From positions 1 to 12,672 of the forward strand of contig JAAZCB010000770.1 of NCBI GenBank assembly GCA_012513545.1: a stretch of 12,672 nucleotides of DNA, in the 5' to 3' direction. Both the position numbers and the translations under genes were made by a program. Under the pieces are notes generated by a model. The model saw nothing but the letters and a program-made list of their open reading frames with translations, searched no databases and had not been told where the DNA came from. This stretch comes from Clostridiaceae bacterium. Lineage in GTDB: Bacteria; Bacillota_A; Clostridia; Acetivibrionales; Acetivibrionaceae. Below are positions 1 through 12,672 of the stretch, piece by piece; position 1 is the stretch's first letter; every line of letters starts with the position of its first letter.

Positions 1-1967
1 CCAATGACTTGTATGCAGGAAGTGACAAGATAAACATGAATGTCACACTTCCATTCTTTATAAACTATAGCTTTAATACTGTATACGTTGAAGGTGATAA
101 GCCTGTTCTCGGAGTTAATGCTTATGGAAACGGACTTACAGAAAACGAACCTGTTACATTTGAAGTATCCAACGCCTCAGACCCGAATCAGAAACTGACA
201 GCTTCCGGGAAAGCCTTTGAAAGGGTAAACATACCGCTTTGGGCTCTGGAGGAAGGTAACTATGACCTGATTATCAGGGCATACACTGCAAATGGACTTT
301 CTGATGCTGTCAAGCATTCCGTTAATGTAGTAAAATCCTATTACGAGATCGACAAGGCAGAGTATTCCAATCTTGCACCTGGTATAAACATAGCAGGCGG
401 AACTTCCGGAAATACCCGATTGGTATTCCAGGACAGAAGCAAGGGTATGTTCCTGTCTCAATTAATTAACCTTTATTATTCTTATGGTAACAGGATTGAT
501 CAGGTTGTATCCAGATATACTGCCTCAAAGCTTATTTCACAGTATTTTGAGGGTCTGACTTATACAAACAATCTTGATAAGCCTTACTTGGCAGATTACC
601 AGAAAGATGATGGTGGATTGTCACTCCTTCCGTATTCGGAAAGCGATATTGATATTTCAGCCAAGCTTGCTGTTTTAGCTAAAGACATGGTAAATACAAC
701 AGCACTTAAAAACTACTTTTACGGCATTCTTGATAATGGCGACAATACAGGAAGAGCAAAAGCACTTTACGGACTTTCAGTGTTAAAGGAACCGGTAGTT
801 CTCGAACTTGACAAAACAGCTCTTCTCGACAACCTGAGTATTAAGGATGTTATATATGTTGCACTTTCCTATTATGAACTTGGTGATTCTACAAAAGCGG
901 GTCAGCTTTATGATGAAAGAATATCCAAGTATATCGTTGAAAACAAGCCTTATTTCATAGTTAAAACTGGTGATGACAAGGATGATATCCTTGAAACTAC
1001 GTCATTATGTTCAATACTTGCTGCCAAGCTTGACAAGGCAGAAAAATCAGGTTTGTATGAATACTGTACAAGGAACTATGCTATGGATATCCTTTTAAGT
1101 ACTGAAAAATTAATGTTTATATCCGAAGAGATTGGTGGGAAATCCACCGTACCAGCTTCCTTCAGTTACAGCTTTAATGGGGAGGAAAAAAACATAAGTC
1201 TTGAAAACGGATACAGTCATTGTATTAACTTGCTTTCCAGCCAGATGAAGGATTTCAGCATAACAAAAGTTCAAGGTGATATTTCAGTAGTGTCAATATT
1301 TAAAGAAAATGTTGTAGATATAAACAAGGTTGATCCTGATATCTCAATTACAAGATCTTACCTGTTAACTGACGGAACGCCGGTATACTCAAATGAATTC
1401 AAGCAGGGTGATCTTATAAGAGTAAGGCTTGATTGGTCTTTCGGCTCCCAGTCCTTTGACGGAACATATGAAATTACAGACTATCTACCAGCTGGATTAC
1501 AACCTTATAACAGGTATTTATACAGTGACGGCCAGAAAATAAGCTTTTATGCTTATAACAGTCCGTATTGGAATACCAACAGGCATGTTGAATACCTGGC
1601 AAGGGTTATAAGTCCTGGTACATATACCGCGCTAGGACCTGTTATTCAGGGGAAAACCTCCCAGGACAATATCAATGTAGGTAAAACCGAGATCGTTACT
1701 ATTAAAACAAACGGTGATATTACCAATCCTTCAGAAGTAACGCCTCCTCCGTCACCTGCTGAAATAACCCTCGGCGACCTTAATGGAGATTCAAAAGTCA
1801 ACTCCACCGATTACTCATATTTGAGAAGATATCTCCTGGGTCTAATTGATAAACTTCCGGTTGATATTAACAATGCAGACCTGAATGGTGATGGCAAGGT
1901 AAACTCCACCGACTACGCCATCTTAAAGAGATACCTGTTAGGTACAATAGAGGAGTTTCCAAGATAA
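1..1967 (+). CDS. Alpha-2-macroglobulin-like secreted protein with C-terminal type I dockerin (5' partial)
   Basis: The frame is open to the left edge, so only the C-terminal ~654 residues are seen; TTG at 9 is just an internal Leu codon. Counting that Leu as residue 1: residues ~15-110 look like a macroglobulin beta-domain. Residues ~138-375 match the helical thioester domain (a YSYG..DQ..SRY segment, then YQKDDGG). Residues ~440-565 match the bacterial receptor-binding-like domain (DYLPAGL at 491-497, then a YLARVISPGTY stretch). A Pro-rich linker (~571-586) leads to a dockerin at 587-650 with two loops, DLNGDSKVNSTD and DLNGDGKVNSTD. The expected thioester Cys (GCxEQ) is absent: the site reads G-N-R-I-D-Q at 160-165. 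Family members trap proteases; with a dockerin it would dock on a cellulosome scaffoldin, perhaps guarding it against proteolysis (inference). The fold is fairly sure; inhibitor activity without a thioester is uncertain. Confidence 0.85.
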   Translation, partial: NDLYAGSDKINMNVTLPFFINYSFNTVYVEGDKPVLGVNAYGNGLTENEPVTFEVSNASDPNQKLTASGKAFERVNIPLWALEEGNYDLIIRAYTANGLSDAVKHSVNVVKSYYEIDKAEYSNLAPGINIAGGTSGNTRLVFQDRSKGMFLSQLINLYYSYGNRIDQVVSRYTASKLISQYFEGLTYTNNLDKPYLADYQKDDGGLSLLPYSESDIDISAKLAVLAKDMVNTTALKNYFYGILDNGDNTGRAKALYGLSVLKEPVVLELDKTALLDNLSIKDVIYVALSYYELGDSTKAGQLYDERISKYIVENKPYFIVKTGDDKDDILETTSLCSILAAKLDKAEKSGLYEYCTRNYAMDILLSTEKLMFISEEIGGKSTVPASFSYSFNGEEKNISLENGYSHCINLLSSQMKDFSITKVQGDISVVSIFKENVVDINKVDPDISITRSYLLTDGTPVYSNEFKQGDLIRVRLDWSFGSQSFDGTYEITDYLPAGLQPYNRYLYSDGQKISFYAYNSPYWNTNRHVEYLARVISPGTYTALGPVIQGKTSQDNINVGKTEIVTIKTNGDITNPSEVTPPPSPAEITLGDLNGDSKVNSTDYSYLRRYLLGLIDKLPVDINNADLNGDGKVNSTDYAILKRYLLGTIEEFPR

Positions 1968-3551: not shown

Positions 3552-5294
3552 CTATTTAAGTTTATTGTTCATTATCTGCTGCCATACGTCAAGGTAAAGC
3601 CTCTTTGCTTGAGTATCTTCATAATCTGGTATGTTCCCCAGCCTCCAAAGGGAAATCCCTTCAATGCCAAACATTTTTGCAAGGCTGATTTTAGCCCGTA
3701 TGCTTCTGGAATCCTCATACCAGATAATATTGTCAGTTTCATCCTTAGCGTCATAAAAAGCTGCATATGGGCTCAGAGAAGTCTCTTGATAATTTACCTC
3801 AACACCCTCCATGAGAAGTCTTTTTTGTATAGCTTCATAACCAGGATTATAGGGATATTTGTTAATAACCTTTCCCTCTTTGAGTTTCCATTGTGCCGAG
3901 TCAAACGAAAACTGTATCCATATCCTGTTTAAATCCTTAACCCCGGTGTCCTTGTCGGTAATTGATTTTAAAGCATAGTATACTTCATCAATTGGAGCTA
4001 GCGGAGTAGTGGTATATCCATTATGCATCTCAGCCTCGGTAAGTTGCTTTGCATAGTAGTCATGTGCCATCAGTATGACTTTATCCGCAGTTTCTCCAAT
4101 CGTTCTGTAATCGTATCCATCGTAATATGCCTGTCCTGGTCGTCTTTTTGGATGAACTGCAACGTATAACAGCTTATTGCTTTTATTAAGCTCCTGCTTT
4201 AATTCTTTCAGGAATATATTAAAGGACTGCCTGAGCATATCTCCCTTCATACTTTCAAAGTCAATTACAACTCCGTCGAAAGAAGGAGAAGTATTACCAA
4301 GGTCTTCGTTATTGATTTGCGATGTTATAGCTTCAATAACCTGCCTTCGTACTTCAGGTCTTGTTATTATGTATTCAACCAGATGAACCTTTGATTGGGC
4401 AGCAGTACTAAATACAGTATCGTTATTTGCATACACCATAAGCTGTGTGGAAACGTTATTCTCCCTGGCTGAATTCAAAGGCTTTGTGAATCCTTCAGGT
4501 ATGTCATACTCATTACCATTTTTGTCTGTAGTATTCAAAAACACACTGCTGGTCTCAGAATCATACTCCAGCCTGCTCCAACCGAAGCCCACAGAATCAA
4601 GAGCCAATAACTTATCTGCCTGATTTGCAGAGCTTATCGCGTAAAAAGCATGCAGCTCATTTATAGATCTGCCAAGCTTTTCGTACATTTTCATCATCAT
4701 TACTGCCGCTTCTTCCCTTTTAGCTGTAGCACGCGGCATAAACTGATTATTTCCAACTCCGGCAATAATACCGAAGTCTTTTGCTATGGTAATGTACCCT
4801 GTATTCTCCGAAACATCAGCAAAAGGACTTCCGAGATATGTTAACTGCCTTGCAAGGCTGTCATAGCCCAAAGTCCGTACAGTCATAACTGCCATTTCTT
4901 CACGGGTAATCGGCTCGTCAGGCCTGAAGCGGTCGACGTCCTTTATAACAACACCATGCTCTAGCGCTGTTTCTATCTGCGAATAATACCACTTGCCTGA
5001 ATCAAGATTATCAATAAAACTGCCCTTTTCTGGTTTTATCAACTCCCATTTCATCAGCTTGACCAAAAAGGCTGTAAATTCACTTCTCTTTATTGTAAGC
5101 CCCATACCAAACCGATTATTGCCAATTCCATCAGTTATTTTTATTAGCCGAAGGTCATGAACAGCCTTATCTGCCCAATGTCCCTCCGGTACATCACCAA
5201 AGCGCTCAGCTTTGCTATCTTGCGCAAATACCTGAATTGAAAATAAAAAAACTGCTATCAGAAAAAGGCTCAATATTCTTTTTAATTTTGTCAT
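3552..5294 (-). CDS. Exported protein with three SLH repeats and a GH18-type glycosidase domain
   Basis: The protein has 580 residues. Residues 1-24 form a signal peptide (KLKR, hydrophobic core, VFA-Q). Three S-layer homology repeats lie at ~32-72 (FGDVPEGHWADKAVHDL), ~94-137 and ~158-202; these bind secondary wall polymer and hold the protein at the cell surface. Residues ~220-575 resemble the GH18 barrels of YaaH/SleL-type wall enzymes. D340-G-V-V-I-D345-F-E347 corresponds to DGxDxDxE with the catalytic Glu kept; MAHDYY (409-414) corresponds to the MxYD motif; GISLWRLG (W550) is the last strand. The first Asp of DxDxE is Val (343). The likely substrate is peptidoglycan or another GlcNAc polymer (inference). 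Start: the ATG at 5303 directly abuts GGGG, so it lacks a usable ribosome-binding site. The ATG at 5294 has GGGGA at 8 bases and begins a better signal peptide. It is a single gene. Confidence 0.85.
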   Translation of the reverse strand: MTKLKRILSLFLIAVFLFSIQVFAQDSKAERFGDVPEGHWADKAVHDLRLIKITDGIGNNRFGMGLTIKRSEFTAFLVKLMKWELIKPEKGSFIDNLDSGKWYYSQIETALEHGVVIKDVDRFRPDEPITREEMAVMTVRTLGYDSLARQLTYLGSPFADVSENTGYITIAKDFGIIAGVGNNQFMPRATAKREEAAVMMMKMYEKLGRSINELHAFYAISSANQADKLLALDSVGFGWSRLEYDSETSSVFLNTTDKNGNEYDIPEGFTKPLNSARENNVSTQLMVYANNDTVFSTAAQSKVHLVEYIITRPEVRRQVIEAITSQINNEDLGNTSPSFDGVVIDFESMKGDMLRQSFNIFLKELKQELNKSNKLLYVAVHPKRRPGQAYYDGYDYRTIGETADKVILMAHDYYAKQLTEAEMHNGYTTTPLAPIDEVYYALKSITDKDTGVKDLNRIWIQFSFDSAQWKLKEGKVINKYPYNPGYEAIQKRLLMEGVEVNYQETSLSPYAAFYDAKDETDNIIWYEDSRSIRAKISLAKMFGIEGISLWRLGNIPDYEDTQAKRLYLDVWQQIMNNKLK

Positions 5295-5383
5295 GATTTT
5301 CATCCCCGCAAATATAATAAAAGTAAATATTTTTATTTTATGTTATAATTATGAAAGCCGCAGTAGTAATAAACACTATTACA

Positions 5384-6210: not shown

Positions 6211-7380
6211 CTACTCTACATGAAATTCTTCCTTGTCCTCGTAAAGCAATACTTTTTTTCCTGTAAGTTTAATTATATATCCTCCTGTAACACCGCTAAC
6301 TATGGCTAAAACAACAGTAAATATTATTCCTGCAAGTTGTGCAGATGCAACAATCCCGGGAATGGCAATTATTGCAACCAATCCTCCGAACAGGCCCGGC
6401 ATCCCATGAAGATTATGGACACCGCAAGTATCAACAGTTTTTAAGGCTTTTTGCATCCTTGGCTGAATAATATTATAGCCAACAGTACATATTAATCCTG
6501 CTAAAGCTCCAATAATAAAGGCACCAAATACTCCAACCCTGTTACACGAAGCCCCGATTGCAACACCACCCGCCAGAGAAGCATTAGCAATATCAGCGAC
6601 AGATACTTTTCCTTTTCTTAATATAGCACTCATAATGTATGTAACAACTGTTGCACCACAGAGCGCAAGAATAGTATTAACAACCGTTTTGGGCATATCT
6701 TCCGAAGGCACAATAGCACTGCAGAAGCTTGGCCAGAAAATCCAAAGTATCATAGACCCAAGCATGGAAAAGCGGTCTGAAGTGCTGTCGGATTCAATTA
6801 CTGCTTTTTGATCTTCATTATTCCTGAGGGCAATTGCCAATCCTAAGCCAAAGTATGCTCCAAACGCATGAATAACTACAGAACCTGCAGAATCCGTAAA
6901 ACCCTTAGTAACCCCAAGACCTCCATCCAGAACAAGCCATTCATTCAATGTATAAGCCAATACCGCAATTATTGCTACAATACCATACTGGTATAGCCGT
7001 ATCCTTCCAAGAACAGCCCCCATGGCTATTAGAGCAGCAGCACATGCAAACTCAGCAAAAAGGATCGCCTCTATACTGTCTGCCGGAATGGACTCACTGG
7101 AAATTATACCTGTTGAACGGATCAACAAATACAGAGGAATACCTGTTGCAACAATTATAAAGGTTCCAGTTGTTGCACTGAAACCATAGTTCCTGACAAA
7201 TACCATAAGAAAACCGAAACCTACAAGAAGCATAGCTAGAATATGAATAGAAAAATTATATTGTTCGACTTGCCTTAAGCCTGATTCCGCTGTCTCTGAG
7301 CCAAAAACATTCAATGGACTCGATAACAGAAATACACATGACAAAAACACCATCACAGATAAATTTAAAAACTTTTTCAA
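6211..7380 (-). CDS. amt: Ammonium/ammonia channel, Rh-like subfamily of Amt/Rh
   Basis: The protein has 389 residues: a signal-peptide-like N-terminus (1-27) and then about 11 membrane helices. Key sites by analogy with E. coli AmtB are D163 (D160), H171 (H168) and H325 (H318), the Asp and twin His of the conduction pore. The wording is Rh-like: DSAGSVVIHAFGAYFGLGLA at 163-182 (classical Amts have a different segment here), WPSF at 216-219, and DTCGVHNLHGMPG at 317-329. The C-terminal tail after the last helix is short and acidic, without the HGExAY-type regulatory motif of P-II-controlled Amts. No glnB/glnK gene is adjacent in the window. It imports or equilibrates ammonia across the cytoplasmic membrane. 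The start is TTG at 7380, backed by AAGGGGAG 6 bases upstream. A possible promoter and TTGCAA-rich DNA precede it. Family membership is sure; Rh versus Amt is strongly suggested by motifs. Confidence 0.92.
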   Translation of the reverse strand: MKKFLNLSVMVFLSCVFLLSSPLNVFGSETAESGLRQVEQYNFSIHILAMLLVGFGFLMVFVRNYGFSATTGTFIIVATGIPLYLLIRSTGIISSESIPADSIEAILFAEFACAAALIAMGAVLGRIRLYQYGIVAIIAVLAYTLNEWLVLDGGLGVTKGFTDSAGSVVIHAFGAYFGLGLAIALRNNEDQKAVIESDSTSDRFSMLGSMILWIFWPSFCSAIVPSEDMPKTVVNTILALCGATVVTYIMSAILRKGKVSVADIANASLAGGVAIGASCNRVGVFGAFIIGALAGLICTVGYNIIQPRMQKALKTVDTCGVHNLHGMPGLFGGLVAIIAIPGIVASAQLAGIIFTVVLAIVSGVTGGYIIKLTGKKVLLYEDKEEFHVE

Positions 7381-7641: not shown

Positions 7642-7658
7642 ACTTTAAGGTGAGGTTT

Positions 7659-9047
7659 ATGCAAGTATTCTATACAGTCCGTTCAGGTGACAACTTAAGC
7701 AGTATAGCCAGGCGCTGGCATATACCGTTAAATTCTCTTATAAATGCAAATAATCTTTCGGCTCCTTACACCATTTTCCCGGGACAGCAGTTGTCCATGC
7801 CTCCAGGTGTAACTACCTATGTTGTTAAGCCTGGTGAGTCGGTATTTTCCATTTCACAAATGTATGGATTGCCTATGAACGTTATAATTGAAGCAAATGG
7901 TCTCGAAGACCCCTATGTCATTGTACCCGGACAAATTCTTATTGTTCCGCCAGGAGTTCCCTATTATGTTGTCAGAGCAGGAGATACACTATACAAAATA
8001 GCAGTCAGATATAATGTGGTATTAAACGGTCAACCCAGACCCGATTTGATAATTAATGCCAACACCGGGCTTACTCCTGCAATTTTTCCCGGCATGACAA
8101 TTGCTGTTCCCTATCCGCCTTCTGGTGGTCCGGGAAGGTTGGCTGTGGTTCTGAACGACAGCTTGAGTTTTTATTTGGGACTGTATGATCCGGTTACCGG
8201 AACAATAAGCACTACAGCTTCAGAAACACTTGACGAAACATCAAACTTGTTCTGGTCTCCAGACCGGACTCGTATTGCATATGTGGGAAGTTCAGGTATA
8301 ATCTACATCCTGGAGGTTGCTACCCGGAGGGTTACGGCAATTGATCAAATCCCTCTTCCTGCCTTTTTGGACTGGGCTCCCGACAGTAGGAGAATAGTCT
8401 ATTCCACTGGAAATGTGATCAGAATATATGATGTTACTAACAATACCTTCAGCTCTATTGAGCGTTCAGGGGCATTATATGTTCAATGGTTTCCAAACGC
8501 AACCGGAATTTTGTATGAAGCCGGAGACACTTCCGGTATCAGCCAGCTTTTCAGAAGTAATACTGACGGAAGTAATGAAAGGAGAATAACAAATAACATA
8601 AGCGGCCTTCTAAATCATGTAAGGCTGTCGCCAAACGGCAGTTTTGTTCTTTATACTACCCCGGGCGTAAGCATTTCGGAGATTTATACTATTGAGCTTT
8701 CCAGCGGTGATATATTTAAAATTCCGGGAGGACCTGAAGCAAAAAACTACAATCCAACCTGGTCACCGGATTCAACCAGGATTGCATACAGTTCCACCCA
8801 GTTTATTAACGGCAAATACTACTCGCTGATCCGTATGTCCGGAACAAAAGGAGAGGGTGACTCTACCCTGGCGATTTCCAGTTGCTATTCCACTCCGGTT
8901 ACCTGGTCCCCTGACAGCAGGAGGATTGCTTACCTGTCAGGCTGCAGAGATGAGTACCTCCCTGTTGAAGTCTGGAGTATCGACATAACAAAACCTGCTC
9001 CTGTTAATTTGTTAAGCGGATTTTTCTTTTATAACCTTGACTGGTAA
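7659..9047 (+). CDS. LysM (x3) - PD40 beta-propeller fusion protein, probably cell-wall or spore associated
   Basis: The protein has 462 residues. LysM domains lie at ~4-47 (FYTVRSGDNLSSIA), ~53-97 (TYVVKPGESVFSIS) and ~102-151 (YYVVRAGDTLYKIA, with an insert); LysM binds GlcNAc-containing glycans such as peptidoglycan. After a short linker, residues ~163-462 hold six TolB/WD40-like PD40 repeats, recognisable by W199SPD, W239APD, W277FPN, L323SPN, W368SPD and W416SPD. The chain ends on NLDW, the start of another repeat, which would close the propeller ring with the first blade. No signal peptide is present: the first LysM begins at residue 4. Signal-less LysM proteins are common on clostridial and bacillus spores (for example SafA), so a mother-cell role in spore coat or cortex assembly is plausible but inferred. 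The ATG at 7659 is preferred over GTG at 7650 because AAGGTGA at 7647-7653 overlaps the GTG and is well spaced for the ATG. Confidence 0.85.
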   Translation: MQVFYTVRSGDNLSSIARRWHIPLNSLINANNLSAPYTIFPGQQLSMPPGVTTYVVKPGESVFSISQMYGLPMNVIIEANGLEDPYVIVPGQILIVPPGVPYYVVRAGDTLYKIAVRYNVVLNGQPRPDLIINANTGLTPAIFPGMTIAVPYPPSGGPGRLAVVLNDSLSFYLGLYDPVTGTISTTASETLDETSNLFWSPDRTRIAYVGSSGIIYILEVATRRVTAIDQIPLPAFLDWAPDSRRIVYSTGNVIRIYDVTNNTFSSIERSGALYVQWFPNATGILYEAGDTSGISQLFRSNTDGSNERRITNNISGLLNHVRLSPNGSFVLYTTPGVSISEIYTIELSSGDIFKIPGGPEAKNYNPTWSPDSTRIAYSSTQFINGKYYSLIRMSGTKGEGDSTLAISSCYSTPVTWSPDSRRIAYLSGCRDEYLPVEVWSIDITKPAPVNLLSGFFFYNLDW

Positions 9048-9108: not shown

Positions 9109-9140
9109 TAAAAATTCCATATATTTATGTTTTATATATG
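9109..9140 (-). terminator. Weak AT-rich terminator candidate for the radical SAM operon
   Basis: On the minus strand CATATAT (9140-9134) and ATATATG (9124-9118) can pair over a 9-base loop, followed by GAATTTTTA. The stem overlaps the stop codon at 9132-9134 and has little GC, so it is weak. The GACTAT hairpin further on may help. Confidence 0.3.
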
Positions 9141-10427
9141 TGGGTCGCTCAACTTTTGATATAACTCTGTTTTATTTCCTCTGTCCCAGTTTTCATATAT
9201 CTGTTTTGATAATTCCGGCGGCAAGGGTAATGCCTTTAAATTATTGTCCCTGTAAAGTTTTAGTATTTCTTTCGAATACTTCTCACACAACCAGCACTCC
9301 CCAGGCACTTCAAAACAGCTTCTCATCCTTTGGTATATTTCATCAAAAGGCTCCGCACCAATATTCCCGAAGGAAATGTTGACAAACTCACAGGGCTGCA
9401 CATCCCCTTTGGCATTTATATAAAATCTGTCGGTTCCCCCTGCGGTGCAGCCGAACATGGTTTTATCCTCTTCAATAGCCTGGGCGGAAATGGAGGGATA
9501 GCTGCTGTAGTCTTTATCAAGATTATATTTATTAACCAGCTGCTTTAAATGCTCCAGATCTTCATGGTTAAAAGGCTCAACACCTGTTTCAAGCCACCCT
9601 CCGGATGGCTTTGGCTTTATTAACTGAATAATTGAGGCATTAAATTCCCGTGCCCTTTCCATCACTTTCTCAAAATTTCCGTTATAAAAATCCTGTCTCC
9701 CCAGGCATGAGTTGAACGCTACAGCTATCCCTGCCTTATGGCAAAGTTCAACTGCTCCGGACATTGTGTCCCATGCATCCTCTTTCCCCAGAAAACTGTT
9801 AAACGCCATTGGCTCGGGGGTATGCAGTGAAAACATTATTGCAGTAACATTATTCTTTTTAAGCTCTAACAGCCTGTTGAGTGTTAATCCGTATCCAGTG
9901 GAATTAATCCATATTTCAGATCTGTTGTCAATTTCCCTGCAAAGCTTTATAAGCCTGTCATATACAAGAAAAGGCTCTCCACCCTCAATATTGAAAAATG
10001 CAATCCCCATATCCTGAAGCTTTCTTACCACGGATATCAGAACATCAATATCTATATCCTTTCCCTTGTCATGCTTCTGGTAGCAGTGGCTGCAGTTGCA
10101 GCTGCAGGCTGAGGTAACTGAAACAAGTACTGTTGTACAGGGAAGCTTCCCTGAAAAAACAGAAAACTTGCTTGCCGCAGTGTAAAAAGCTCTGGAGGGA
10201 TAACCCGGGCAGTACAGATCGACACGGGTATTGGCACCTATTTTGACAAACTTGTTGTGCTGCATTTTTGAGAGAAAATATAAAAGCCTTTTTAAAAAAA
10301 TAATAAACTTCAAAAACCCTATCCTTCCTGTTAAAAGCTTGGGCAAAAACCGGAAGAAAACACCCAGCTTAACCCTCTGGTTAAACAATATCTTTTTAAA
10401 CCCTGTAATATTTCTGACTTTTTGCAT
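9132..10427 (-). CDS. Radical SAM protein with SPASM/twitch-like C-terminus
   Basis: The protein has 431 residues. C108-x3-C112-x2-C115 in TSACSCNCSHCYQ is the radical SAM 4Fe-4S motif, and GGEP (149-152) is the SAM-binding motif. After the barrel, C327 (FGCTAGG), C346 (VQPCEF), C371, C378 and C381 (CWLC) suggest an auxiliary Fe-S cluster domain of the SPASM/twitch kind. The ~100 residues before the cluster motif are unusual: residues ~20-60 are basic and hydrophobic (FFRFLPKLL, FLKFIIFLKRLLYFL), suggesting an amphipathic membrane-facing segment. It would generate a 5'-deoxyadenosyl radical on an unknown substrate; its operon partners suggest an acyl chain or ACP-bound intermediate (inference). 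Start: ATG at 10427 has GGAGGTGA (10439-10432) at ideal spacing. The in-frame ATG at 10463 has no ribosome-binding site. It is the last gene of the operon, 46 bases after the SDR gene. Confidence 0.85.
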   Translation of the reverse strand: MQKVRNITGFKKILFNQRVKLGVFFRFLPKLLTGRIGFLKFIIFLKRLLYFLSKMQHNKFVKIGANTRVDLYCPGYPSRAFYTAASKFSVFSGKLPCTTVLVSVTSACSCNCSHCYQKHDKGKDIDIDVLISVVRKLQDMGIAFFNIEGGEPFLVYDRLIKLCREIDNRSEIWINSTGYGLTLNRLLELKKNNVTAIMFSLHTPEPMAFNSFLGKEDAWDTMSGAVELCHKAGIAVAFNSCLGRQDFYNGNFEKVMERAREFNASIIQLIKPKPSGGWLETGVEPFNHEDLEHLKQLVNKYNLDKDYSSYPSISAQAIEEDKTMFGCTAGGTDRFYINAKGDVQPCEFVNISFGNIGAEPFDEIYQRMRSCFEVPGECWLCEKYSKEILKLYRDNNLKALPLPPELSKQIYENWDRGNKTELYQKLSDPHI

Positions 10428-10431
10428 TAGC

Positions 10432-10439
10432 TCACCTCC
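10432..10439 (-). promoter_or_regulatory. Ribosome-binding site that fixes the radical SAM start
   Basis: The minus strand reads GGAGGTGA here, near-perfect complementarity to the 16S 3' end, 4 bases (7 from GGAGG) before the ATG at 10427. It lies inside the longer open frame that begins at 10463, so that longer start is unlikely. Confidence 0.85.
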
Positions 10440-10473
10440 CATAAGTCTCGTCCATGTCCGCATAGAATTATAC

Positions 10474-11505
10474 TCAAATCAACCCACGGTCTTTATACCA
10501 CTTTACTGTTTTTTCGATTCCTTCTTCAAGACTGAACTCGCTTTTAAAACCCAGAACTTCAGCTGCTCTTTTTGTCGAATACTCAATATTATCATAGAAC
10601 ATGTTAACCCTGCCCCGGGTCAAAAGCGGGGGATTCTTTAAGCCTAAGAGCGTATATGCCAATTCCGCTGAAAAGCCCAGAGGATATACCAATGCTTTTG
10701 GTAAGTTCCCCGGTTTTTTTATTCCTGCCTTACTGCAAAAAAGTGAATATATCCTGTCCATATACTCCACTTCCCTGCTGCCAATAATGAAGGATTGGAC
10801 TCCTTTGAGTTTTTTTGAATAAGCAGTGAAATAAGCTCTTGCCAGGTCTTTTACATAGACAGTATGAAACTTGTTCCTGACTGACCCGGGTAAAAAAGGA
10901 ATCCCGCTTTTTGCAGTCTTTAAATACTCGTAAAAGCCTGTATTGAATTCCCTTTCGCCATATACCCATACCGGCTCTATAACAGTCAGATTCATGCCCT
11001 TTTCCTTTGCGTATTCCATTGCTCTTAATTTTCCTTCAGCCTTGGTATCCCTGTAATAGTTGAGTGCACTCTTAAATATTCTGTCCGCAAAATAAGGGTA
11101 GTGTGAGTTGTTCGGTGAGTTTTCATCCTTTATTCCAGGACAGTCTTCCTCTCCATACACCGAGCAGGAGGAGGTTATGATAATATCTGAAATCCCATTT
11201 GCGCTGCAGGCCTTAAGCACATTCATGGTGCCTTCCGTATTGGTTCTGAAAAACCTTTCATAGGGACCCCAATCCCTTGCATAGGCCGCAATATGGATTA
11301 CACAGCTGTAGCCCTTTAAAACTTCAGCAAGGCGGTCATAATCTTCAATATCTCCATACTCCATCCTTGCAGAAAGACCCTTGAGGTTTTCAAGATTGCT
11401 GCCATTACGCACAAGGCAGCCTGTATCTATTCCATTGTTGCAGAAAAGCTCCGCCACATGACTGCCAATAAACCCGGCAGCACCAGTTATCAATACCTTA
11501 TCCAT
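10474..11505 (-). CDS. Extended short-chain dehydrogenase/epimerase (3-beta-HSD/OleD-like)
   Basis: The protein has 343 residues. It opens with a Rossmann nucleotide-binding motif, VLITGAAGFIGSH (4-16; G8, G11, G14). It continues with HIAAYARDWG (71-80), TSSCSVYGEE (111-120) and Y151-RDT-K155, the YxxxK catalytic pair of extended SDRs. The end (RAAEVLGF..EFSLEEGIEKTVKWY) matches the NAD-dependent epimerase / 3-beta-hydroxysteroid dehydrogenase branch rather than sugar-specific GalE. The likely reaction is NAD(P)-dependent reduction of a keto group or epimerisation; beside a ketosynthase, a beta-keto-acyl or polyketide-type substrate is plausible (inference). ATG at 11505 overlaps the ketosynthase stop in ATGGATAA, 8 bases, implying translational coupling. 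An ATG at 11517 is nearly abutted by AAGAGG. The chosen start gives a normal family N-terminus, though its spacing to AAGAGG (13) is long. Confidence 0.85.
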   Translation of the reverse strand: MDKVLITGAAGFIGSHVAELFCNNGIDTGCLVRNGSNLENLKGLSARMEYGDIEDYDRLAEVLKGYSCVIHIAAYARDWGPYERFFRTNTEGTMNVLKACSANGISDIIITSSCSVYGEEDCPGIKDENSPNNSHYPYFADRIFKSALNYYRDTKAEGKLRAMEYAKEKGMNLTVIEPVWVYGEREFNTGFYEYLKTAKSGIPFLPGSVRNKFHTVYVKDLARAYFTAYSKKLKGVQSFIIGSREVEYMDRIYSLFCSKAGIKKPGNLPKALVYPLGFSAELAYTLLGLKNPPLLTRGRVNMFYDNIEYSTKRAAEVLGFKSEFSLEEGIEKTVKWYKDRGLI

Positions 11506-12672
11506 TATCTTTTTCATACCTCTTAAAAAGAATAGCTGCATTATGTCCGCCAAAGCCATAGGACGCAGATATGGCATGGTTTATTTCCACAGAAGTAGTC
11601 TCCATTGCAATATTAAGGTTATCCACAGGCTCAGTCACAAGACTCCCGTGTACAACCGATTCTTTTATCGACAAAGCGGTTACCGCTGCCTCAATTGCGC
11701 CGCTAGCTCCAACACTGTGTCCTAAAAGCCCTTTGGTTGAGTTTATCAACGGTTGGCTGTTTGTATCACCGAAAAGCTTCCTTATCGCTTTTGCCTCAAT
11801 ATCGTCATTAAGAATTGTACCTGTACCATGGGCATTATAATATTCAATCTTTGTGTTTCCTGCAAGCTTTGCAAGTATTTTCTCAACCTGCTCGCCATTT
11901 TCCTCCATTTGTACAATATTATAGGCGTCACTAGTGCATTCGTAACCGCATATTTCCGCATAAATCTCTGCGCCTCTTTTTAATGCACTTTCCAGTTCCT
12001 CAAGTATTAAAATGCATCCTGCTCCTTCATTAAACAAAAAGCCGCTTCTATTCTTTGAAAAGGGCATGGGATTCCCATTCTCAGACCTTGTAAGGGTTGA
12101 AAGAATATCAAATCCGCGCATAACTCCGCCATGCTTCTCTGCGAGGCACTCAACTCCTCCTGTTACAACTATACTGCTGATACCGTTTTTTATTCGAAGG
12201 TATGCTTCTCCTATGGCACAGGTGCCTGAAGCACAGGAGGCATTAATTGTAAAGTTGGCTCCCTTGATACCGAATAATATTGATACCCAGGCTGAAGCTG
12301 AGTTTGGCATAAGTATTGGAATAACCATTCTGTTAAACCTTACTTCTATCCCGTATTTTCCAGGAACCTCCATGTCACCTTCGAAGACATGGGCAGTATA
12401 AGAATCAAAGGCCGTCTGGAGGCTGCCCATGCCCGTACCTATAACTATATCAGGGTTTTCCAGTCCCTTTACAGTAAAATACCTGCCTCCGGCCGTGATT
12501 TCAAATCCTGCATCCTCCAAAGCCAGTTTTGCGCCAACTACTGCAAACCTGGCAGACTTCCCCATCAAGGTCTCAACTGAAGCAGGCAGATTATGCTTTT
12601 CAAGAGATATTTCTGGCGCCGGAACATAGTGCAGTGATTTAAACTGATATTTCTTTTTGAAGTCCTCTGGTA
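11498..12672 (-). CDS. Beta-ketoacyl-ACP synthase, FabF-like (N-terminus cut by the right edge)
   Basis: The frame stays open from the stop at 11498 to the window's right end, giving about 390 residues; I translated 12569-12670 and found no stop (ending PEDFKKKYQFKSLHYVPAPE near the edge). The TTG/ATG at 12568/12565 are internal. Catalytic residues of the decarboxylating condensing enzymes are present: nucleophile Cys in NASCASGTCAIGEA (codon 12233-12235), His in NAHGTGT and Lys/His in STKGLLGHSVGASG, with GFGGHNA near the C-terminus. FabF is ~410 residues, so about 20 are missing. It condenses a malonyl-ACP extender with an acyl chain. Some internal motifs depart from housekeeping FabF (CLAEKHGG in place of the usual segment; PNSASAW), and the SDR and radical SAM partners are not those of fatty acid synthesis, so a specialised lipid or polyene pathway is more likely (inference). 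Confidence 0.9.
   Translation of the reverse strand, partial: PEDFKKKYQFKSLHYVPAPEISLEKHNLPASVETLMGKSARFAVVGAKLALEDAGFEITAGGRYFTVKGLENPDIVIGTGMGSLQTAFDSYTAHVFEGDMEVPGKYGIEVRFNRMVIPILMPNSASAWVSILFGIKGANFTINASCASGTCAIGEAYLRIKNGISSIVVTGGVECLAEKHGGVMRGFDILSTLTRSENGNPMPFSKNRSGFLFNEGAGCILILEELESALKRGAEIYAEICGYECTSDAYNIVQMEENGEQVEKILAKLAGNTKIEYYNAHGTGTILNDDIEAKAIRKLFGDTNSQPLINSTKGLLGHSVGASGAIEAAVTALSIKESVVHGSLVTEPVDNLNIAMETTSVEINHAISASYGFGGHNAAILFKRYEKDNG

Follow-up and report, generated by a model that had tools for sequence, protein, structure and literature searches.

The three genes at one end of a 12,672-nucleotide stretch of DNA from a Clostridiaceae bacterium of the family Acetivibrionaceae (contig JAAZCB010000770.1 of assembly GCA_012513545.1; 'the window' hereafter means this whole stretch) are the tail of a larger, nine-gene operon. 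In relatives the gene order is UbiA–OYE–ACP–AONS–DAGK–ThiL–KS–SDR–rSAM, where OYE stands for an Oxidored_FMN protein, ACP for an acyl carrier protein, AONS for an alpha-oxoamine synthase with the BioF/KBL/Spt fold, DAGK for a DAGK-type lipid kinase, ThiL for a ThiL-like kinase, KS for a ketosynthase, SDR for a short-chain dehydrogenase/reductase and rSAM for a radical SAM/SPASM protein. In our best reading, which is one of analogy, the operon may be likened to sphingoid-base synthesis (ACP, AONS, SDR and lipid kinase) to which a transferase resembling that of archaeal ether lipids has been added, and we put at about one half the probability that its genes all serve a single pathway dedicated to an amino-alcohol lipid. 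This reading builds on the gene content and linkage seen in relatives, on conserved catalytic residues, and on the observation that the operon KS, AONS and UbiA can be told apart from the paralogues detected elsewhere in the carriers.

All three window genes lie on the minus strand. The KS gene (11498..12670; Pfam, alignment) encodes a KAS II-fold protein with Cys-His-His residues whose 5′ end is open at the window edge, leaving a partial product of 390 aa (about 427 aa in the nearest full-length relatives) in which both the N and the C domain of Pfam ketoacyl-synt are matched. It is followed by an extended SDR of the NAD-dependent epimerase/3beta-HSD type (10474..11505; Pfam/NCBIfam), which shares 8 bases with the KS gene (ATG start 11505-11503, KS stop 11500-11498), and, 46 bases after the SDR stop, by the rSAM gene (9132..10427, 431 aa; Pfam, alignment), which carries the CxxxCxxC and SPASM cysteines and is preceded by a likely ribosome-binding site, GGGAGGTG, read from the sequence at 10433..10440 on the same strand. 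An earlier, sequence-only reading of this DNA had proposed the same run of three enzymes in one direction, with these coordinates, overlap and gap, and had described them as a FabF-like Cys-His-His ketosynthase, an extended SDR and a radical SAM/SPASM-like protein; the domains and conserved residues bear it out. The operon most likely ends after the rSAM gene, because its neighbor to the left (7650-9047) is encoded on the opposite, plus strand; no terminator-like site was found between the two. The window's own six upstream genes are presumed from relatives, because the contig ends inside the KS gene. The grouping of KS, SDR and rSAM is far beyond chance, because the order recurs across many phyla.

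The survey on which these statements rest started from the rSAM protein, for which 837 homologues at E <= 1e-10 were obtained among 3966 candidates, and a scan of species genomes with the rSAM alignment provided 80 loci, the best of 91. Open reading frames (ORFs) of the 80 loci and the window were clustered, six-frame translations were scanned with models of the nine families, and the family alignments were restricted to proteins whose length was 0.85-1.2 times the median. Fifty-five of the 81 sequences could be scored; the 26 unscored ones, the window included, comprise operons cut by contig ends, split operons, rSAM genes standing alone, and L002, where UbiA lies beyond the flank. Nine clusters recur, all on the rSAM strand. 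The full set of nine genes is present in 39 of the 55 scorable loci, and a core of six (UbiA, AONS, DAGK, ThiL, SDR and rSAM) is complete in 53, the exceptions being L043, without DAGK, and L057, without AONS, DAGK and ThiL. The latter, reduced to UbiA-OYE-SDR-rSAM, looks like a deletion or a misassembly because both OYE and SDR are shortened at the junction; it was kept in the counts. The genes form two blocks, ThiL-(KS)-SDR-rSAM and UbiA-(OYE)-(ACP)-AONS-DAGK, with UbiA ahead of rSAM in 39/55 loci and the blocks swapped in 16/55. ACP, found in 46/55 loci, stands immediately ahead of AONS in the orders listed; KS and ACP occur together in 41 loci, ACP alone in five, KS alone in one and neither in eight. 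In some genomes the operon is split, with partners elsewhere: UbiA-OYE in L015, and UbiA-OYE-ACP plus the start of AONS in L074. In L071 and L077 rSAM is sited away from the operon; the L071 genome has UbiA-OYE elsewhere, and in that of L077 no UbiA match was obtained at E 1e-10. In two cases (P0079 and L078) SDR and rSAM are fused into one protein, which suggests successive intermediates as their substrates.

An XRE-type regulator gene stands immediately ahead of UbiA in 16 loci; besides it and the nine families, no cluster occurs in more than seven. The sequence-only reading held that the arrangement is not that of housekeeping fab genes and advised extending beyond KS in search of ACP, dehydratase, ketoreductase, acyltransferase or thioesterase genes. 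An ACP and further lipid-type enzymes are indeed found upstream in relatives, in the form of UbiA-OYE-ACP-AONS-DAGK-ThiL rather than an ordinary fab operon. No dehydratase, acyltransferase, thioesterase, S-adenosylmethionine (SAM) methyltransferase or phytoene-desaturase-like enzyme was found among the 17 clusters common to at least four loci, for each of which one or a few representatives were examined. Those outside the operon are of general function and include an ABC transporter, a sigma factor, a response regulator, a histidine kinase, a carbamoyltransferase and a VTT domain protein (one representative each). In Mangrovibacterium lignilyticum a carbamoyltransferase gene (L059:6722-8926) occupies the slot that KS has in other loci. 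Five loci (L062, L063, L064, L070 and L076), by title four Ignavibacteria or Ignavibacteriales/-aceae and one Bacteroidetes, have an extra protein of about 340 aa 3′ of DAGK, hydrophobic by eye; two copies were scanned with Pfam, and neither had a match above the cut-off.

Judged by its sequence, the operon KS is not the housekeeping FabF, because all ten carrier genomes scored have FabF as a gene apart and the operon KSs fall together on a single branch. Against the FabF equivalog TIGR03150 (cut-off 493.75) the partial window KS reached 251 bits and the operon KSs of nine of the ten genomes 234.5-299.6 bits, the tenth (L059) having none; the separate FabF of each of the ten reached 569.9-682.1 bits. 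In a quickly searched tree of 75 KSs, which was built without aryl-polyene, ladderane and OleA enzymes, the 52 operon KSs lie on one side of a branch with SH-aLRT 99 and a stem of 1.27. On the operon side there are also, with support of 83-87, five non-FabF KSs, one of them E. coli FabB; FabF and FabB do not form one group, and several long branches were flagged. The firm grouping with housekeeping FabF that would have spoken for an ordinary role is thus not seen. Cys146, His281, Lys313 and His318 are invariant in all 52 aligned KSs, the window copy included, and the operon KSs are accordingly predicted to be catalytically complete. When the genomes of 11 KS-less loci were searched for a KS, L058 proved to have elsewhere one of intermediate score (397 bits, where the Alkaliphilus operon KS reaches 674 and the FabF of the same organism 280), and the remaining genomes had no match above 277 bits.

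The AONS is a subfamily of its own. Among solved structures KBL and Spt are its closest relatives, none of the 11 NCBIfam models matched by the L015 copy gives a score that reaches the cut-off, and in ten genomes the operon AONS scores 574-675 bits, every other AONS copy remaining at or below 309. The lysine for pyridoxal phosphate is kept in 58/58 AONS proteins and the attachment serine in 39/39 ACPs. For the SDR the nearest NCBIfam models are HpnA and OleD, both far under cut-off. By analogy, ACP, AONS, epimerase-type SDR and lipid kinase together may be seen as the outline of bacterial sphingoid-base/ceramide-phosphate synthesis. A bacterial Spt is reported to have a dedicated ACP whose gene adjoins that of Spt (PMC9386255), and the same system includes the epimerase/dehydrogenase CerR and a ceramide kinase (PMC9386255 and PMC11324152), cerS being reported in a separate operon (PMC11324152). 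The Caulobacter genes, aasR-cerR-acpR-spt-cerS plus ceramide kinase, share with the present operon a lipid kinase, an epimerase-type SDR and a dedicated ACP whose gene adjoins that of an AONS-fold enzyme; unlike them, the operon adds UbiA, OYE, a ThiL-like kinase, KS and radical SAM, its AONS is below the Spt cut-offs, and an N-acyltransferase is not among the common clusters. An OleABCD long-chain olefin pathway was also considered, OleD (2-alkyl-3-oxoalkanoate reductase) being among the best SDR models, and was rejected: the SDR reaches 109.1 and 114.3 bits with NF042422 and NF042423, for which the cut-off is 580, and no OleA, OleB or OleC type gene is among the clusters common to the loci.

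Both kinases keep their motifs, GGDGT in 58/58 DAGK proteins and six aspartates in each of 62/62 ThiL-like proteins (D35, D51, D78, D126, D213 and D216 in L003 numbering), which align with the ThiL motifs and which we take to be metal ligands. DAGK enzymes convert lipid alcohols to monophosphates, ThiL converts a monophosphate to a diphosphate, and the UbiA family uses diphosphate donors. By sequence (E 1.8e-11) and by fold alike, the nearest solved structure to the operon UbiA is that of MjDGGGP synthase, an archaeal enzyme that adds the second prenyl chain to the glycerol-phosphate ether; the predicted structure of the L003 copy (pLDDT 85.7), in which the UbiA fold is present, has 6m31 as best PDB match (E 1.6e-9, TM 0.71 by target length). 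When residues are mapped through a sequence alignment to MjDGGGP synthase, N62, D183 and D187 are kept in 59/59 operon proteins and D70 in 58/59. The genome of Alkaliphilus peptidifermentans gave no UbiA-family match besides the operon copy, and this speaks against a menaquinone role there.

In the rSAM family the three cysteines of CxxxCxxC and three cysteines of the SPASM region are invariant (75/75), a fourth being present in 50/75, and a conserved part of about 100 residues precedes the radical SAM domain. The protein is below the cut-offs of the NCBIfam models listed (25 of 34 matched), and the fold search, with SuiB, SkfB and BlsE as best structure matches, indicates no substrate. A role as maturase of a ribosomally synthesized peptide, suggested by SkfB and SuiB, was rejected: with 15-17% identity and a TM of about 0.5 the resemblance to these is weak, and the clusters show no recurrent gene for a short peptide, ORFs shorter than 70 aa not having been looked for.

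For the amino-alcohol lipid pathway we infer the substrates, the order of the steps and the product. KS and the operon ACP would provide a particular acyl-ACP, which AONS would condense with an amino acid, with loss of CO2, to an alpha-amino ketone. The steps thereafter would presumably be reduction of the amino ketone to an amino alcohol by SDR, phosphorylation of a hydroxyl by the DAGK-type kinase, addition of a second phosphate by the ThiL-type kinase, and, in the membrane, alkylation or prenylation of the product by UbiA, with OYE and rSAM tailoring the chain or the backbone. A bolder version, which we regard as quite improbable, is that the operon makes a new class of bacterial membrane lipid, with an amino-alcohol backbone made by AONS and a second chain added by UbiA from a long-chain alkyl diphosphate made by the operon itself, not from an isoprenoid diphosphate. 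The idea is attractive because two kinases of the DAGK and ThiL types are paired with a diphosphate-using UbiA: the former would make the monophosphate and the latter the diphosphate, the loss of a motif 1 aspartate in UbiA would reflect the change of donor, and preparation of the alcohol or cross-linking of the chains would fall to the radical SAM enzyme.

Several observations weigh against the amino-alcohol lipid reading. Some concern UbiA, in which D66 is replaced by Gly and D180 by Tyr in 59/59 proteins (MjDGGGP synthase numbering), so that motif 1 of DGGGP synthase, D66-x3-D70, is incomplete. Alanine mutants of D66, D70, D180, D183 and D187 of MjDGGGP synthase are reported to be strongly reduced (PMC9385802), and because two of these residues are lost, ordinary prenyl-diphosphate transfer by the operon UbiA seems doubtful. 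As controls we used 20 of the 23 further UbiA matches from 13 carrier genomes, the G001 match counted as that of the operon being assumed to belong to the operon family. At D66 they have Asp in 15 cases and Glu in two; three did not match the pattern, which allowed only D, E and G, and the same three rows were missed by a wider one. D180 is not diagnostic for the superfamily, Asp being found there in 0/13 matched controls with seven unmatched. From the conserved residues we think that the operon UbiA is probably active, with an unusual donor or metal site. As to the ThiL-like kinase, it scores below the TIGR01379 cut-off of 184.15 (138 bits for L058, 131-168 bits in ten genomes), yet eight of the ten genomes have no ThiL above the cut-off and no better match than the operon copy, and in those eight it may have a thiamine role; the other two have a separate ThiL. 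Dedicated acyl supply is optional, because KS is absent from 13/55 loci and ACP from 9/55; the core six are complete in 11 of the KS-less loci, the other two (L043 and L057) also lacking core genes. OYE is absent from 4/55 loci; in three of the four genomes, those of L037, L043 and L069 (the last sequence being a 4.3-Mb contig with chromosome in its title), the operon OYE model found nothing at E 1e-10. The L015 AONS reaches only 249.9 bits with the Spt model NF047600, for which the cut-off is 640, and the family has a specific Cys-x-Thr-Pro loop (Cys and Pro 58/58, Thr 57/58) in which Pro occupies the position of an Arg in KBL and Spt. Finally, no N-acyltransferase is among the clusters common to the loci, the genomes not having been searched for CerS.

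It could also be that the operon makes an N-heterocycle, an explanation that we consider unlikely. KS would then provide a beta-ketoacyl-ACP, AONS would add serine or glycine, the amine would close a hydroxypyrrole-like ring, the kinases would activate a hydroxymethyl group and UbiA would alkylate the ring, to give a lipid-soluble redox carrier or signal. Such a ring is closed in prodigiosin synthesis by PigJ, a KS, and PigH, an ACP-AONS protein (an ACP-ACP-AONS fusion with a pyrrole product in the prodiginine definition), and aromatic rings are often alkylated by UbiA enzymes. The operon resembles the prodiginine bipyrrole module in combining KS, ACP and AONS, which occur together in 41/55 loci, and the XRE-type regulator gene ahead of UbiA also counts in favor of the idea. 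Unlike in that module, the operon proteins are separate, KS or ACP is sometimes absent, and SDR and the kinases are conserved. The 11 KS-less loci with the core six would have no dedicated beta-keto step, the SDR would reduce the very ketone required for ring closure, and UbiA is closest to DGGGP synthase. This last relationship, by sequence as well as by fold and with N62, D70, D183 and D187 kept, would rather fit an archaeal-like hybrid ether lipid, in which UbiA would place an ordinary isoprenoid diphosphate on the hydroxyl of a phosphorylated amino alcohol, OYE would reduce the prenyl chain and ThiL would work on the head group. The constant replacement of D66 and D180, the former an acidic residue in 17 of the 20 controls, makes this proposal improbable as well. 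Unlike DGGGP synthase, the operon UbiA sits with AONS and kinases.

The sequence-only reading had pointed to ladderane-type loci and to diabolic acids. A ladderane-like or other ring-forming fatty-acid pathway around KS and rSAM, already weakened, now seems very unlikely. The anammox ladderane clusters, type II fatty acid synthase genes with radical SAM enzymes, SAM methyltransferases and phytoene-desaturase-like enzymes (PMC9821293), do share with the operon the company of type II fatty acid synthase-like genes and a radical SAM enzyme. However, neither a SAM methyltransferase nor a phytoene-desaturase-like enzyme is among the common clusters, KS is dispensable, and the operon has AONS, UbiA and kinases. 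Kinship with diabolic-acid synthesis fares no better, the conserved partners being AONS, DAGK, the ThiL-like kinase, UbiA and OYE. An ordinary fatty-acid or biotin gene cluster, to which FabF, ACP and BioF-like folds might point, is refuted for the KS by the separate FabF and the single branch of 52 operon rows, and the AONS, at 275 bits, is far from the BioF cut-off of 426; we give it hardly any credence.

The operon is patchily distributed within the groups sampled and common to distantly related bacteria, the 75 rows of the rSAM tree (a quick search, as for KS) covering 17 NCBI phyla by record title. Among 73 genomes of one order, 15 have rSAM and the same 15 have UbiA (E <= 1e-80), the two being on one contig in 14; among 391 genomes from the class of Herbivorax sp., rSAM was found in three (E <= 1e-100), all already among the loci. 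Horizontal transfer of the operon is likely, though not proved, because Bacillota need five label changes on the rSAM tree, of which at least two are forced by well-supported branches. By path on this tree the window lies closest to a UBA Clostridiales genome and to Acetivibrionaceae.

The nine-gene set is apparently undescribed: no description was found in the open-licence PMC literature, and the sole candidate with UbiA operons, PMC12419801, deals with a different gene neighborhood. Should the amino-alcohol lipid reading be true, the operon would represent a widespread lipid or lipid-like capability so far without genes assigned in the literature covered, uniting modules known separately (sphingoid-base synthesis, an archaeal-type ether-lipid synthase, a diphosphate-forming kinase and a radical SAM enzyme), and a UbiA with an altered metal site and a non-isoprenoid donor would widen the known scope of that family. 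The search for the product is directly testable in cultured carriers, among them Desulfosporosinus lacus DSM 15449, D. hippei DSM 8344, Alkaliphilus peptidifermentans DSM 18978 and Mangrovibacterium lignilyticum.

The remainder of the window encodes proteins of other kinds. An ammonium-transporter protein (6211-7380, minus strand) scores 126 bits against an amt subfamily cut-off of 343, and no P-II gene was seen among the nine window ORFs scanned with Pfam. The gene at 7650-9047, convergent with the operon, encodes three LysM domains and a PD40/TolB-like propeller, and that at 3552-5303 (minus strand) a surface protein that combines SLH domains with a glycosyl hydrolase domain of family 18. 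The protein encoded at 3-1967 (plus strand) has an alpha-2-macroglobulin MG10 domain of the bacterial type and, after it, a type I dockerin, and therefore the source organism probably makes cellulosomes.

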